NCBI RefSeq assembly: GCF_000768065.1 | Contig: NZ_JRKM01000001.1 | Coordinates: forward strand, 3,454,001-3,518,000 | Length of the DNA stretch: 64,000 nt | Reading direction: 5' to 3' | Source: Aquabacterium sp. NJ1 | GTDB taxonomy: Bacteria > Pseudomonadota > Gammaproteobacteria > Burkholderiales > Burkholderiaceae_C | Shown: positions 16,125 to 21,506 of the stretch, in pieces | Layout: each line of letters begins with the position of its first letter | How positions within the stretch are numbered: position 1 is the first letter of the stretch | Translations under genes and position numbers: made by a program | The notes under the pieces: generated by a model | Told to the model about the DNA's origin: nothing | The model's input: the letters and a program-made list of their open reading frames with translations, nothing else | Database searches by the model: none

Positions 16125-17768
16125 TCAGCCCGGGTAGGCGCGCTGCAGGATGGCGTCCACGGCCAATGAGCGCGTGTCGATGCTGCCCACCACGCGGCCC
16201 CATTGCGGATCCAGCCTGGTCTGGATGAAGGCATCGGCCACTTGACTGGGCGCATGGCGCTGCAGCAGGCAGGCCTGGGCCAGCAGCACCAGGCGCTCGG
16301 CAAAGCGGCGGCCCAGGGCTTCGAGCTGCTCAGGCGGTTCCTTGAGCATGTCCAGCAAGCCTTGTCGCGCGGCCTTGAGCCGGGCATCGCCGCCCATGCC
16401 TTGGGCCAGGTCGTCCAGCAAGGCCATGGCCGCGGCAGGCTCCTTGCTGATGGCGCGCATCACATCCAGGCACATCACATTGCCTGAGCCTTCCCAGATC
16501 GAGTTGACGGGTGCTTCGCGGAACAGGCGGCCCATCACACCCTCGTCCACATAACCATTGCCACCGAAGATCTCCATGGTCTCGCCGGTGAGCTCGACCG
16601 CGCGCTTGCAGACCCAGAACTTGGCAGCCGGCGTCATCACGCGCTTCCAGGCCTTTTCGACTGGGCTGTCGTCGCGCTCGTAGGCCTGGGCCAGGCGCAT
16701 CATCAGCACCACATTGGCTTCGTTTTCCAGCGCCAGGTCGGTGAGCACGGCGCGCATCAGGGGTTGGTCCACCAGCAGGCGACCGAAGGCCTTGCGTTGA
16801 CGGGCATAGGCCAGGCCTTGCACCAGGCCCTGGCGCACCATGCCGGCGCTGCCCACCACGCAATTGAGCCGCGTGTACGTGGCCATCTCGATGATGGTGG
16901 GGATGCCGCGGCCGGGTTCGCCCATCAGGATGCCGTGGGCGTCCTTGAACTCGACTTCGCTGCTGGAGTTGCTGCGGTTGCCGACCTTGCCCTTGAGGCG
17001 TTGCACTTCGACGGGGTTCTTGCTGCCATCGGGGCGCCAGCGTGGCACGAAGAAGCAGCTGGGGCCGCCCTCGGCGGTGCGTGCCACCACCAGGTGGGCA
17101 TCGCACATGGGCGCGGAGAAGAACCACTTGTGGCCGCGCAGGGTGTATTCACGCTCGCCCTGGCCGGTGGGCGTGGCCAGGGTGGTGTTGGCGCGCACGT
17201 CCGAGCCGCCTTGTTTTTCCGTCATGCCCATGCCGATCCAGATCGATCGTTTGCTGGCCAAGGGCAGGTCGCGCGGGTCGTAGTCCGGGCTGAGCAACTG
17301 ATCCTTCATGGCCGACCACAGCGCGGGTTCACGCTGGATCAGGGGAATGGCGGCCTGCGTCATCGTGGCGGGGCACAGCGTGCCGGCTTCGACCTGACCA
17401 TGCATGTAGAAGCCCGCGGCCCAGGCCGCCCATCGGCCCTGGCGATCATCTGCAAAGGGCATGGCGATCAGGCCTTGCCCGCGGTACAGCGCCATCAGGC
17501 CGTGCCAGCTGGGGTGAAAGTTCACCTGGTCCACCCGGCGCCCGCGGGCGTCAAAGGACTTCAACTCGGGCGTGTAGCGGTTGGCCTGGTCAGCCAGGGC
17601 ATAGGTTTCCGCCTGGCCCAGCGTGGCACCATAAGCCTGGAACTGTGGGGCGAAGTCGGATGCCCCGGCACGTTCCAAGGCTTCCCGCAGGGGTGCATCG
17701 GTGTCGAACAGGTTGTAGTCTTGCAGCTCGTCGAACTGGTTCGTGATCTCGTGCGTTTGCCAGGTCAT
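16125..17768 (-). CDS. aidB: AidB family acyl-CoA dehydrogenase
   Basis: 547 residues, the AidB length. The N terminus has HEITNQFDELQDYNLFDTD and the core has GMTEKQGGSDVRANTT, ETMEIFGGNGYVDEG and SIWEGSGNVMCLDVMRA, all AidB-specific. AidB is an FAD-binding acyl-CoA dehydrogenase homologue of the E. coli adaptive response to alkylation. It binds DNA and FAD, and its natural substrate is unclear. Here it is divergent from a TetR regulator, which suggests TetR control instead of Ada (inference). Confidence 0.9.
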   Translation of the reverse strand: MTWQTHEITNQFDELQDYNLFDTDAPLREALERAGASDFAPQFQAYGATLGQAETYALADQANRYTPELKSFDARGRRVDQVNFHPSWHGLMALYRGQGLIAMPFADDRQGRWAAWAAGFYMHGQVEAGTLCPATMTQAAIPLIQREPALWSAMKDQLLSPDYDPRDLPLASKRSIWIGMGMTEKQGGSDVRANTTLATPTGQGEREYTLRGHKWFFSAPMCDAHLVVARTAEGGPSCFFVPRWRPDGSKNPVEVQRLKGKVGNRSNSSSEVEFKDAHGILMGEPGRGIPTIIEMATYTRLNCVVGSAGMVRQGLVQGLAYARQRKAFGRLLVDQPLMRAVLTDLALENEANVVLMMRLAQAYERDDSPVEKAWKRVMTPAAKFWVCKRAVELTGETMEIFGGNGYVDEGVMGRLFREAPVNSIWEGSGNVMCLDVMRAISKEPAAAMALLDDLAQGMGGDARLKAARQGLLDMLKEPPEQLEALGRRFAERLVLLAQACLLQRHAPSQVADAFIQTRLDPQWGRVVGSIDTRSLAVDAILQRAYPG

Positions 17769-17804: not shown

Positions 17805-18455
17805 ATGCCAGCCAGTCTAGGAAAAAAGCCTGCCTCAGGTGTTCGGGTTTCAGCAGCCACACGGCGCAAGCCGCGGCAGGCGCGGGCGCGCGTGAGTTCG
17901 GAGGCCTTGCAGGAGGCCTTTGTTCGGGTTTTGATGGATCGCGGTTATGCCGGGGTGACCATCCGCGAAGTGGCGGCCGTGGCCGGCGTGGGCGTGGGCA
18001 CCTTCTACGAGTACGTGGCCAACAAGCAGGCACTGGCCGCCTTGACCATCCACATGCGTGTCAAACGGTTGGCACAGGCCATGGGGGCGTACGTGCAGGC
18101 GCACCAGGGGGCGCCCATGCTGGCGCTGGTGCAGGGCCTGATCGACGCACAACTCGGCCTGGTGATGGACGAGGGGGCGGTCTGGGCCGCGCTGTTCATG
18201 CTGGAGCGCCAGGTGTCCAGCCCTGATGCCTACCGCAAGCACTACGACCAGTTCGTGGCGCTGTGGGCGCAGGCCTTGTCGGCGTCTGCCCAAGCGCCAG
18301 CGCCAGAGCGGGTGCCGGTGGTGGCGCGCATGGTGCACACCATGGTGTATGGCTGGGTCACACAGAGCCTGCTCACGCAGGGGCCCGAGCTGGACAGGGC
18401 CGCACTGCACGCCGAGGTGCAGCGGGCCGTGGGGGCCTATCTGGCGGCCTTGTGA
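17805..18455 (+). CDS. TetR family regulator divergent from aidB
   Basis: 216 residues from ATG 17805; the longer frame upstream runs through aidB antisense and is not real. After a basic N-terminal tail (RRKPRQARARVSSEAL) comes a TetR helix-turn-helix: AFVRVLMDRGYAGVTIREVAAVAGV and GTFYEYVANKQALAALTI. The C-terminal ligand domain is helical. It probably regulates aidB, its divergent neighbour. The stop abuts the stop of the PEP-CTERM gene with no gap. Confidence 0.88.
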   Translation: MPASLGKKPASGVRVSAATRRKPRQARARVSSEALQEAFVRVLMDRGYAGVTIREVAAVAGVGVGTFYEYVANKQALAALTIHMRVKRLAQAMGAYVQAHQGAPMLALVQGLIDAQLGLVMDEGAVWAALFMLERQVSSPDAYRKHYDQFVALWAQALSASAQAPAPERVPVVARMVHTMVYGWVTQSLLTQGPELDRAALHAEVQRAVGAYLAAL

Positions 18456-19180: not shown

Positions 19181-19198
19181 TTGCATCCGACGTGCCGG
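19181..19198 (-). promoter_or_regulatory. Possible sigma-54 promoter of the PEP-CTERM gene
   Basis: On the minus strand the sequence reads CGGCACG-TCGG-ATGCAA. The -24 GG is at 19196-19195 and the -12 GC at 19184-19183, exactly 10 nt apart, with good agreement to TGGCACG-N4-TTGCA. The PEP-CTERM start codon is 47 nt downstream. PEP-CTERM genes are known to be controlled by RpoN with PrsK/PrsR in some betaproteobacteria. A similar chance match occurs inside a coding region near 14336, so this is suggestive only. Confidence 0.5.
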
Positions 19199-19266
19199 AG
19201 CGACCTCCCTCAAGTCGGTGTAGATTGGGGCGATTTCCTGAGCGAACCCATCAGCAGAGAGCCCCG

Positions 19267-19929
19267 ATGCCGCCCTCCAAGCGCCCGATCGACCTGAACA
19301 CCTATGCCCGCGCGGACATCCTGCGCGCCTTCAACAGCCGCTTGCTGCCGCAGTTCAGCACCACGTGTGAGGTGGAGGTGACCGGCATCAAGCGGCAGGC
19401 CGAGGCCGCGGGCGTGTCGTTTTTCGTGGCCTTGAGCCATGCGGTGTCCAGTGCGGTCAATGCGGTGCCCGAGTTGCGCCACCGCATGATCGATGGCGTG
19501 CTCTACGAGTTCGAGCGTGTGGACCCGGGCTACACCGTGGCGCGCGAGGGCGACCTGTTCAGCTTCTGCGACGGCGAGCACACCTCCGACTTCGGCCGCT
19601 ATTGCGAAGAGACGCAGCGCCGCATGGACGCCGTCAAGCGGCAGCCCGATCTGAGCGTGGGCGAGAAGCACCACATGTTCTTCATCACCAGCATCCCCTG
19701 GTTCAGCTTCACGGCGTTCACGCACCCGTATGACCCGGTCTACGGCTACATCCCGGTGATCACGCTGGGGCAGTACACCGAGCGGGCCGGCGCCGTGGTG
19801 ATGCCCGTGGCCGTGCAGGTGCACCATGGCGTGGTCGATGGCCTGCACGTGGGCCGCTTCTATGCAAAATTGAATGAGCTGAGCCGCCAGGCGGCGTCAT
19901 GGCTCAAGCTGGGGCCTGATCGGGCTTGA
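19267..19929 (+). CDS. Chloramphenicol acetyltransferase-fold protein (CatA-like)
   Basis: 220 residues from ATG 19267. Seen: PIDLNTYARADILRAFNSR at the start, the central SFTAFTHPYD, and VQVHHGVVDGLHVGRFY near the C terminus, which contains the CAT catalytic HHxxxDG motif. The fold and catalytic His/Asp match class A chloramphenicol acetyltransferases. However, many environmental CAT-fold proteins do not confer resistance and acetylate other substrates, so no resistance claim is made. Its last 26 nt overlap the end of the nuclease-like gene on the opposite strand. Confidence 0.8.
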   Translation: MPPSKRPIDLNTYARADILRAFNSRLLPQFSTTCEVEVTGIKRQAEAAGVSFFVALSHAVSSAVNAVPELRHRMIDGVLYEFERVDPGYTVAREGDLFSFCDGEHTSDFGRYCEETQRRMDAVKRQPDLSVGEKHHMFFITSIPWFSFTAFTHPYDPVYGYIPVITLGQYTERAGAVVMPVAVQVHHGVVDGLHVGRFYAKLNELSRQAASWLKLGPDRA

Positions 19930-20785
19930 TCGTTTCACCGAGCTGGGCTTGGGCATCGGCCAGGTCATCAGGCCGCCATGGCGTGGACTTGGCCAGCGCC
20001 ATCCAGACAGGAAAGGGCAAGGGGCGGTGGACGTGTCGGGCGGGCCGCACTTGCTCAAGCTGCCCGGTGTCGATGTCGCCATGCACCACCCAGATGCCGA
20101 AGGCTTCGGGGATCTCGTTGGGCTTGGCGATGCCGGCCGGGAACACGTAATAGCAGGCGCCACCCAGCCACTGATAGGCCTCGCGCTTGGCCGCATGGCG
20201 CAGGTCGGACAGCAAGTCAGCGCGGCTGACCTTGATCTCGTGCACGACGGGCTGAAGGTAGGCCTCGACCGAGGTATGGCGCACCGAGAACACATCGGGG
20301 CGGGCCATGCGCCAGCTGCCTGTGGATTCAGGCGCCGGGGTGGTGGCTGCGGCTTCCAACGGCCACAAGCCCGGATCAGGCAGGGCTTCTGAGGCCACCC
20401 ATGCGGGATCGGCGGCGGCTTGTTCGGGCGCCTGAACATGGGCTTGAACGTGGGCCTGAACATGGGCTCGCAAGGCCAGCTCCAGCCAGACCAGCCGGCC
20501 CGCATCGACCAGTTGCCGCGCCACGCGCTGCGCCAGCCGTTCGTGCCGGCTCATCGCGCGCAGATTGCGCTGCCGACTGGCGGCCAGTGCTTCGAAGCCC
20601 GAAGGACTCAGGCGCAAGGTGTCACGGCCGGCTTCGTCCGTGTGGGCCTCGATCAGGCCCGCGGCCAGCAGATCCAGCTCGATCGGGTCACGGCAAGGCC
20701 AGCCCGCCGAGCGCCAGATCTTCATCAGGCGCGACAGATGGGTGCGTCCCAGTGTCCAGGATGGGTCGTGAGAGGCGTGCTCCAT
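19904..20785 (-). CDS. Winged-helix plus MmcB-like PD-(D/E)XK protein under a LexA-type box
   Basis: 293 residues. An N-terminal helical region (about 10-105) looks like a winged helix: HLSRLMKIWRSAGW, ELDLLAAGLIEAH, TLRLSPSGFEAL. A short linker with a triple HVQA repeat (about 107-118) follows. The C-terminal part has RPDVFSV (Asp164), VHEIKVSRADLLSDLR (Glu183, Lys185), CYYVFPAGI, then IPEAFGIWVVHGD. This D-ExK layout matches MmcB-type putative nucleases (RADV...EIKS...FYFAVP...GLIVAD). A perfect CTGT-N8-ACAG palindrome touches the start codon. Predicted: DNA-damage-induced, DNA-acting protein; both domains are inferred by eye. The ATG at 20785 would give a nearly leaderless transcript. Confidence 0.65.
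   Translation of the reverse strand: MEHASHDPSWTLGRTHLSRLMKIWRSAGWPCRDPIELDLLAAGLIEAHTDEAGRDTLRLSPSGFEALAASRQRNLRAMSRHERLAQRVARQLVDAGRLVWLELALRAHVQAHVQAHVQAPEQAAADPAWVASEALPDPGLWPLEAAATTPAPESTGSWRMARPDVFSVRHTSVEAYLQPVVHEIKVSRADLLSDLRHAAKREAYQWLGGACYYVFPAGIAKPNEIPEAFGIWVVHGDIDTGQLEQVRPARHVHRPLPFPVWMALAKSTPWRPDDLADAQAQLGETIKPDQAPA
20431..20466. repeat. 12-bp tandem repeat, three copies
   Basis: Three 12-nt units (CCTGAACATGGG-type) at 20431, 20443 and 20455 encode the HVQA repeats in the linker of the MmcB-like protein. In-frame units of this kind usually change linker length without disrupting domains. Confidence 0.7.
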
Positions 20786-20806
20786 AACTGTATAAGTATA
20801 CAGTTA
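20785..20806 (-). promoter_or_regulatory. LexA-type SOS box overlapping a -10 element
   Basis: A perfect inverted repeat with 9-nt arms, TAACTGTAT and ATACAGTTA, around AAGT. It contains CTGT-N8-ACAG, the LexA box of beta- and gammaproteobacteria, and differs from the E. coli consensus only at the outer edge and centre. On the minus strand it also contains TATACT (20800-20795), a near-consensus -10. The ATG at 20785-20783 is part of the box edge, so LexA bound here would block transcription of the MmcB-like gene. Confidence 0.7.
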
Positions 20807-20829
20807 CGAGGCTGCCGAGCCGGCATCAA

Positions 20830-21417
20830 TCAGCCCGCGCGGGCCATGGGCGCCACGCCGATCAAGGCCTGGTGGCCCCAGAAGGCAAAGGCCGCCCAGG
20901 CCACCACGCCCACCACCACGGTGAGCGCCGTCCCGATGGTATTGCCGCTGGGGTAGGTGGTGCCAGCGGCACGGTCGCGTTGGCGCGAACTGCGGAAGTC
21001 GAGGATGGCCCAGACCAGGAAGGCGGCGAACAGCACCACGTCGGCCAGCTTGCCATTGGCCAGCAAGTGCGCCAGCGCCCAGACCTTCACCGCCAGGATC
21101 ATGGGGTGATGCAGGCGGGCCTTGATCGCATTGCCCGGCACATAGGCGGCAGCCAGGAAGACAAACGAGATCAGCACCAGCAGCGCGGCGATGTGGCGCA
21201 TGGCCACCGGAGGTGTCCACAGCACTTCAGGCTGCAGGCGTGCCTGACCGAAACCCCAGACCATCAAGGCGAAGCCGGCGATCGACACCAGCGAATACAG
21301 CCCCTTCCAGGGCAGCTCGCCGATGCGCGCGCGCATGTGCGTGCGCCAGCCCTCGGCCACGATGCGCACGGAGTGCACGCCCAGAAAGACCACCAGACCC
21401 AGAATCAACCACGTCAT
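20830..21417 (-). CDS. nnrU: NnrU family membrane protein
   Basis: 195 residues with about six membrane helices. It begins MTWLILGLVVFLGVHSVRIVAEGWR and has AAYVPGNAIKARLHHPMILAVKVWALAHLLANG, the core signature of NnrU, a heme-associated membrane protein first linked to nitrite/NO respiration. The ATG at 21417 is preferred because family members start at this point; an ATG at 21453 also exists but lacks a ribosome site. No denitrification genes are nearby, so the role here is open. Confidence 0.88.
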   Translation of the reverse strand: MTWLILGLVVFLGVHSVRIVAEGWRTHMRARIGELPWKGLYSLVSIAGFALMVWGFGQARLQPEVLWTPPVAMRHIAALLVLISFVFLAAAYVPGNAIKARLHHPMILAVKVWALAHLLANGKLADVVLFAAFLVWAILDFRSSRQRDRAAGTTYPSGNTIGTALTVVVGVVAWAAFAFWGHQALIGVAPMARAG

Positions 21418-21506
21418 CGCCAAGCCCCAAGCAAAGATCAGTGAAGGGCCCATTATGGTTGTTTCGCGTCCACCACCGGGCGCAGTAGGCTGGCTAGAAT
21501 GGGCCG

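Follow-up and report, generated by a model that had tools for sequence, protein, structure and literature searches.

The window analysed here, a 64,000-nucleotide stretch of the genome of Aquabacterium sp. NJ1, carries on its reverse strand a gene that is probably a LexA-repressed SOS gene for a repair nuclease. Its open reading frame (19904-20785) encodes a 293-residue protein made of a winged-helix domain and a PD-(D/E)XK-like domain, and its ATG is abutted by a LexA-type operator. We infer LexA binding, induction, nuclease activity and the role in repair. An in-frame TAA (20804-20806) lies just 5' of the operator and no ATG, GTG or TTG start occurs farther 5', so that the ATG at 20785 is the first usable start.

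The operator, CTGTATACTTATACAG, is a perfect CTGT-N8-ACAG palindrome at positions 20788-20803, 2 nt from the ATG, as claimed by an earlier reading made from the sequence alone (the sequence-only reading). Scoring relied on a matrix of 58 CTG-N10-CAG operators located upstream of lexA in the window genome and in 29 relatives (30 genomes), this form having been required of the lexA sites that entered it. The box 20-mer scored 28.2, the second highest value among the 15 sites scored in its own genome; the others were a umuD-like gene (28.6), the integron integrase gene intI (25.2), a radical SAM gene (24.6), imuA (21.5), recA (20.1), lexA (16.9) and eight lower ones. Control windows of 200 bp reached 13.5, 16 or 20 in 2 of 1770 cases at each threshold, the site threshold of 13.5 having been chosen after the scores were seen. 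A longer pattern, CTGTATNNNNNTACAG, occurs exactly at four places in the 5.02-Mb genome, namely at intI, imuA, the nuclease gene and the radical SAM gene, and the list with one mismatch adds lexA, recA (translation inspected) and the umuD-like gene, among others. CTGT-N8-ACAG itself was found at 41 places genome-wide compared to 24 for the reversed control pattern, the neighbours being inspected for a few of the 41.

The window genome encodes LexA, and like boxes precede lexA, recA, imuA, the umuD-like gene, intI and the radical SAM gene. The imuA gene was identified with NF033429 (over its cut-off) and starts 16 bp from its box. The integrase gene matched NF011946 and TIGR02249 over their cut-offs and its site (C1:3678-3693, in locus L001, G000:C1:2178-5193) lies upstream of the integrase domain; judged by this site, the integron is probably under SOS control. 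The radical SAM gene belongs to the PA0069 family (NF033668 over its cut-off; site C1:3943528, in locus L159, G000:C1:3942528-3944543) and is presumably SplB-like; an in-frame ATG is found 16 nt past its box, within the longest open reading frame. LexA sites have been predicted in silico at betaproteobacterial recA, lexA, imuA-imuB, splB and 'Helicase c2' genes in a survey that covered only multi-chromosome species (PMC3323433). The window genome likewise has boxes at recA, lexA, imuA and the SplB-like gene, the last in agreement with the published predictions of SOS-controlled splB, and the predictions at 'Helicase c2' and splB genes agree with the present pattern as a whole. The available part of PMC3323433 does not name the nuclease gene, which could in principle be its hypA or hypB. 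Among the other CTGT-N8-ACAG sites of the window genome, that at G000:C1:4833538-4833553 (L161) scores 15.5, with no adjoining SOS gene recognised. Five more (L004, L157, L174, L175 and L176) have low scores, with no SOS gene recognised there.

Of 200 genomes sampled from the GTDB family, 104 had a homolog of the nuclease gene (E<=0.001). In a class-wide sample, with at most 6 candidates scored per genome, 3 of 369 genomes, the window genome among them, matched the profile at E<=1e-8. We inspected 132 loci (102 of the 104 homolog genomes and 30 named contigs), of which 122 were distinct and 121 had the length needed for a quick tree. In this tree the window gene falls in a clade of 44 genes (Shimodaira-Hasegawa-like approximate likelihood ratio test, 99). 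A site scoring at least 13.5 was found in 42 of the 44 clade genes, always of the CTG-N10-CAG form and in 13 cases with the full CTGT-N8-ACAG, compared to 8 of the 77 genes outside the clade. At the stricter thresholds of 16 and 20, the counts were 38 and 30 of 44 inside the clade and 8 and 5 of 77 outside; grouping by identity instead gave 40 and 31 of 49 against 10 and 6 of 83. The sequence flanking the box has diverged across the clade while the box stays. In silico, these counts and the matrix score bear out both the LexA-type operator and the betaproteobacterial relative under a LexA box proposed by the sequence-only reading. On this distribution, LexA control would be confined mainly to the clade and would not be a property of the whole family.

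The commoner form of the box in relatives, CTGTATTTATAATCAG, ends in TCAG. In 29 relatives (L177-L205), lexA itself is preceded by two CTG-N10-CAG boxes 18-19 bp apart (27 genomes) or by one (2 genomes), and many of these have a CTGG or TCAG half and would escape a strict CTGT-N8-ACAG search. Because the relatives' lexA operators also have such halves, the TCAG-ended boxes look like a local LexA code and not like decay.

By inspection of the sites, CTGTATTTATAATCAG includes TATAAT, a perfect -10 element. In the window, TATACT within the box, if used as the -10, would put the transcript start at or just 5' of the ATG. In 9 of the 42 site-bearing clade genes, exactly 2 nt separate the box from an ATG; in the others the nearest in-frame start is 4-34 nt away, except for five in which it is 48-110 nt away. 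The recurrent 2-nt spacing suggests leaderless SOS transcripts and lends some support to the nearly leaderless mRNA that had been proposed for the window gene.

The two predicted domains of the protein have likewise held up. The N-terminal domain is modelled as a MarR-like winged helix (residues about 11-78), and Asp164, Glu183 and Lys185 of the PD-(D/E)XK-like domain are where the sequence-only reading had placed them and nearly invariant. Among the 121 distinct homologs, D164 is conserved in 120, E183 and K185 in all 121, and H182, R188, K200 and Y204 in 119-120. The core D and the (D/E)xK residues sit on the right fold for the PD-(D/E)XK superfamily; in the structure comparison, the modelled nuclease domain resembles 3dnx, the restriction enzyme PaqCI and AF1548, and the model has an MmcB-type fold. 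This conservation also bears on the idea that the protein serves as a DNA-binding regulator or scaffold under LexA control, in which the winged helix does the work and the PD-(D/E)XK fold merely helps hold DNA. We regard this as unlikely, since one would not expect an inactive nuclease to keep such residues; that relatives adjoin a helicase having its own nuclease-like domain also speaks against it.

The kinship with MmcB claimed by the sequence-only reading stands at the level of profiles and fold. The family alignment comprised the window protein and 48 of 56 usable relatives, the MmcB alignment 29 of 30 fetched loci (32 matches). Comparison with PF06319 by hhalign (95.4%, E 1.9e-8, 75 columns, 21% identity) indicates profile-level homology, and the window family and MmcB have PHROGs in common. 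A direct match failed to appear: PF06319 did not hit the window protein at E<=1, was not among the 6 families matched by any of 49 members, and found nothing in the window genome. In the available part of a review (PMC9578287), MmcB is described as an SOS-regulated PD-(D/E)XK endonuclease that protects Caulobacter from mitomycin C and cisplatin, with a proposed role alongside translesion polymerases in crosslink removal. The window protein shares the nuclease-domain fold of MmcB and of its solved relative 3dnx (SPO1766) but differs by an added N-terminal winged helix and linker, the PF06319 model being single-domain with 148 positions. Caulobacter LexA recognises another box.

The same nuclease domain is found in phage 'DNA repair protein' families, with a match to PHROG 5429 (E 3.2e-13) and, by Foldseek, 14 viral models at E<=0.001 (best 3.8e-9), three of them named MmcB in BFVD; the listed phage matches span only about residues 162-265 of the window protein. 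We know of no LexA link for these families. The protein could therefore be imagined as an SOS-induced defence or mobile-element nuclease directed against phage or plasmid DNA and not at chromosomal repair. In keeping with this, the nuclease domain occurs in phages (39 of 50,697 records) and 13 viral contigs, and relatives are found on plasmids (40 of 72,556 records), where 15 listed matches cover 74-86% of the query, thus both domains, and 5 records reach at least 80%. We nevertheless hold it to be quite unlikely: PADLOC gave no match, the gene is widespread in the family, its operator is conserved and its neighbour is of a repair type in the clade, and the two plasmid-borne relatives tested had no LexA-type site.

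This neighbour is a co-directional open reading frame often found directly 3' of the nuclease gene in relatives. An example from an Aquabacterium metagenome-assembled genome (L037) has DEAD_2 and Helicase_C_2 domains and matches the Rad3, YoaA and DinG models, all below their cut-offs. Its N-terminal stretch, in which Pfam names no nuclease domain, has H, E, RAD and EEVK motifs; we call it EndoDinG-type because these resemble the N-terminal nuclease motifs listed for EndoDinG in PMC11981726, the available part of which does not mention LexA control. The downstream gene of relatives thus shares with EndoDinG both the N-terminal H, E, D and ExK nuclease-type motifs and the XPD-like helicase domains; it should be noted that EndoDinG is the counterpart of the neighbour and not of the window protein itself.

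We searched for this helicase in 80 genomes, comprising 65 of the 104 carriers of the nuclease gene and 15 genomes that lack that gene, and found it in 51 (48 of the 65 and 3 of the 15). Among the 65, the two genes adjoin in 31 (co-directional in 30, divergent in 1); in 17 the helicase gene lies elsewhere, and in 17, the window genome included, it is absent. One genome counted as elsewhere (G160) has both genes at contig ends. In the adjacent co-directional pairs, the ends of the matches overlap by as much as 12 bp or are separated by as much as 132 bp. Within the clade, 24 of the 29 other genomes searched (loci L006-L034) have the adjacent helicase. In the raw counts, the site accompanies 27 of 31 adjacent pairs compared to 5 of 34 genes without an adjacent partner; box and helicase adjacency going together is a pattern, not proof. 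In two named Hydrogenophaga loci outside the clade (L056 and L060) the pair is divergent, with the site between the genes. In Tibeticola sediminis (L048), the homolog has no box, is followed by the helicase and adjoins a divergent gene recognised by eye as mutL-like. EndoDinG genes lying elsewhere were considered as bearers of their own LexA sites, in 19 of 20 genomes (G160 being set aside for its contig end); mostly they were not, only L229 (15.9) and L235 (18.9) exceeding 13.5 and L226 reaching 12.2. DinG and YoaA belong to the E. coli SOS regulon. The sole Helicase_C_2 protein of the window genome is a plain DinG-like protein by eye, and its gene has no site (best score 6.0 in 3.5 kb).

Under the favoured LexA-repressed repair nuclease, LexA would sit in the undamaged cell on the box, covering the presumed -10 and abutting the ATG, and RecA-triggered cleavage of LexA upon DNA damage would free the promoter. 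The product would then bind DNA through its MarR-like winged helix and cut it through its MmcB-like domain; it would most likely be a structure-directed endonuclease that acts in the repair of lesions or crosslinks or in the processing of forks. By analogy with MmcB and its link to mitomycin C and cisplatin, crosslink-type lesions would be the first candidates. In most of the clade relatives tested, the nuclease would act beside the EndoDinG-type helicase encoded directly 3' and presumably co-transcribed; in the window genome it would act without EndoDinG, perhaps with ordinary DinG, UvrD or the ImuA-ImuB machinery. A bolder version, which we advance tentatively and consider rather less than likely, is that the nuclease and EndoDinG form a dedicated LexA-controlled two-protein machine for incision and unwinding, for instance at interstrand crosslinks or blocked forks, as a counterpart in function of the eukaryotic crosslink-repair nuclease-helicase pairs, the nuclease alone being under LexA in the window genome.

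Several results weigh against a LexA-controlled repair nuclease. The window protein matches no Pfam, NCBIfam or PADLOC model, a search of the PDB by sequence likewise yielded no useful match, and Foldseek found nothing in the PDB at E<=0.001 (best 0.022). The usual EndoDinG-type partner is missing from the window genome, and the link between site and adjacency is not significant once phylogeny is considered (the independent pairs number only 3 on well-supported branches and 6 on all branches). At 13.5, no site is found in 71 of the 121 distinct homologs, 69 of them among the 77 non-clade genes and two (L014 and L028) in the clade. A promoter scan of 20700-20900 gave no consensus -35/-10 pair near the box, which also counts against the nearly leaderless mRNA. 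The eight fixed bases alone are unremarkable, with 2 matches in the window for 1.17 expected and at least 2 in 32 of 100 shuffles, and CTGTATNNNNNTACAG with one mismatch barely exceeds its control (7 forward and 9 reverse compared to 6 and 8). These last two counts would also suit a palindrome bound by another regulator or arising as an accident of an AT-rich promoter. That explanation appears highly improbable, as the site fits an independent matrix of lexA operators, exact copies of the long pattern lie at SOS-type genes, and the clade has retained the site despite its diverging flanks.

What appears new is the architecture, together with the conserved LexA-type site and the EndoDinG pairing; the component parts are of known kinds. 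In the open-licence literature we came across neither a winged-helix MmcB-like SOS gene nor a pairing of such a gene with EndoDinG, and found nothing pertinent on fitness data or a Comamonadaceae DinG/LexA study. The gene adds an unannotated, conserved candidate member of the SOS regulon for a large bacterial group and places an MmcB-type nuclease beside a natural helicase neighbour; even in Caulobacter, little is known of how such a nuclease works. This setting offers a concrete way to study the substrates of MmcB-like nucleases, the target of the winged helix and the handling of crosslinks in these bacteria.

Table 1. Features of the nuclease gene and its operator (positions in the window).
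Feature	Positions	Strand	Basis
Gene for winged-helix and PD-(D/E)XK protein, 293 aa	19904..20785	-	Open reading frame; homologs in 104/200 sampled GTDB-family genomes
Putative LexA box CTGTATACTTATACAG	20788..20803	.	Matrix score 28.2; site in 42/44 clade genes
TATACT within box, candidate -10 element	20795..20800	-	Suggested by sequence
Predicted MarR-like winged-helix domain, residues about 11-78	20552..20755	-	
Predicted MmcB-like PD-(D/E)XK domain, residues about 76-283; low-confidence linker about 111-155	19937..20560	-	
Asp164, PD motif	20294..20296	-	D in 120/121 distinct homologs, gap in the remaining one
Glu183-x-Lys185, (D/E)XK motif	20231..20239	-	Both residues in 121/121 distinct homologs

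The closest named relatives of the gene come from Aquabacterium metagenome-assembled genomes. The ratio of nonsynonymous to synonymous substitution rates was about 0.12 and 0.19 against two near relatives, and by this measure the gene is under purifying selection. Upstream on the same strand lies an NnrU-family gene (20830-21453), and the intergenic gap of 44 bp holds the box. The 3' neighbour is a convergent CatA-like acetyltransferase gene (19192-19929), whose 3' end shares 26 bp (19904-19929) with that of the nuclease gene, so that the two transcripts would be complementary over this stretch. An AidB-family gene with AidB_N and acyl-CoA dehydrogenase domains is found about 2 kb away on the reverse strand (16125-17768), beside a TetR-family regulator gene on the forward strand (17865-18455); AidB is an alkylation-response protein in E. 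coli.
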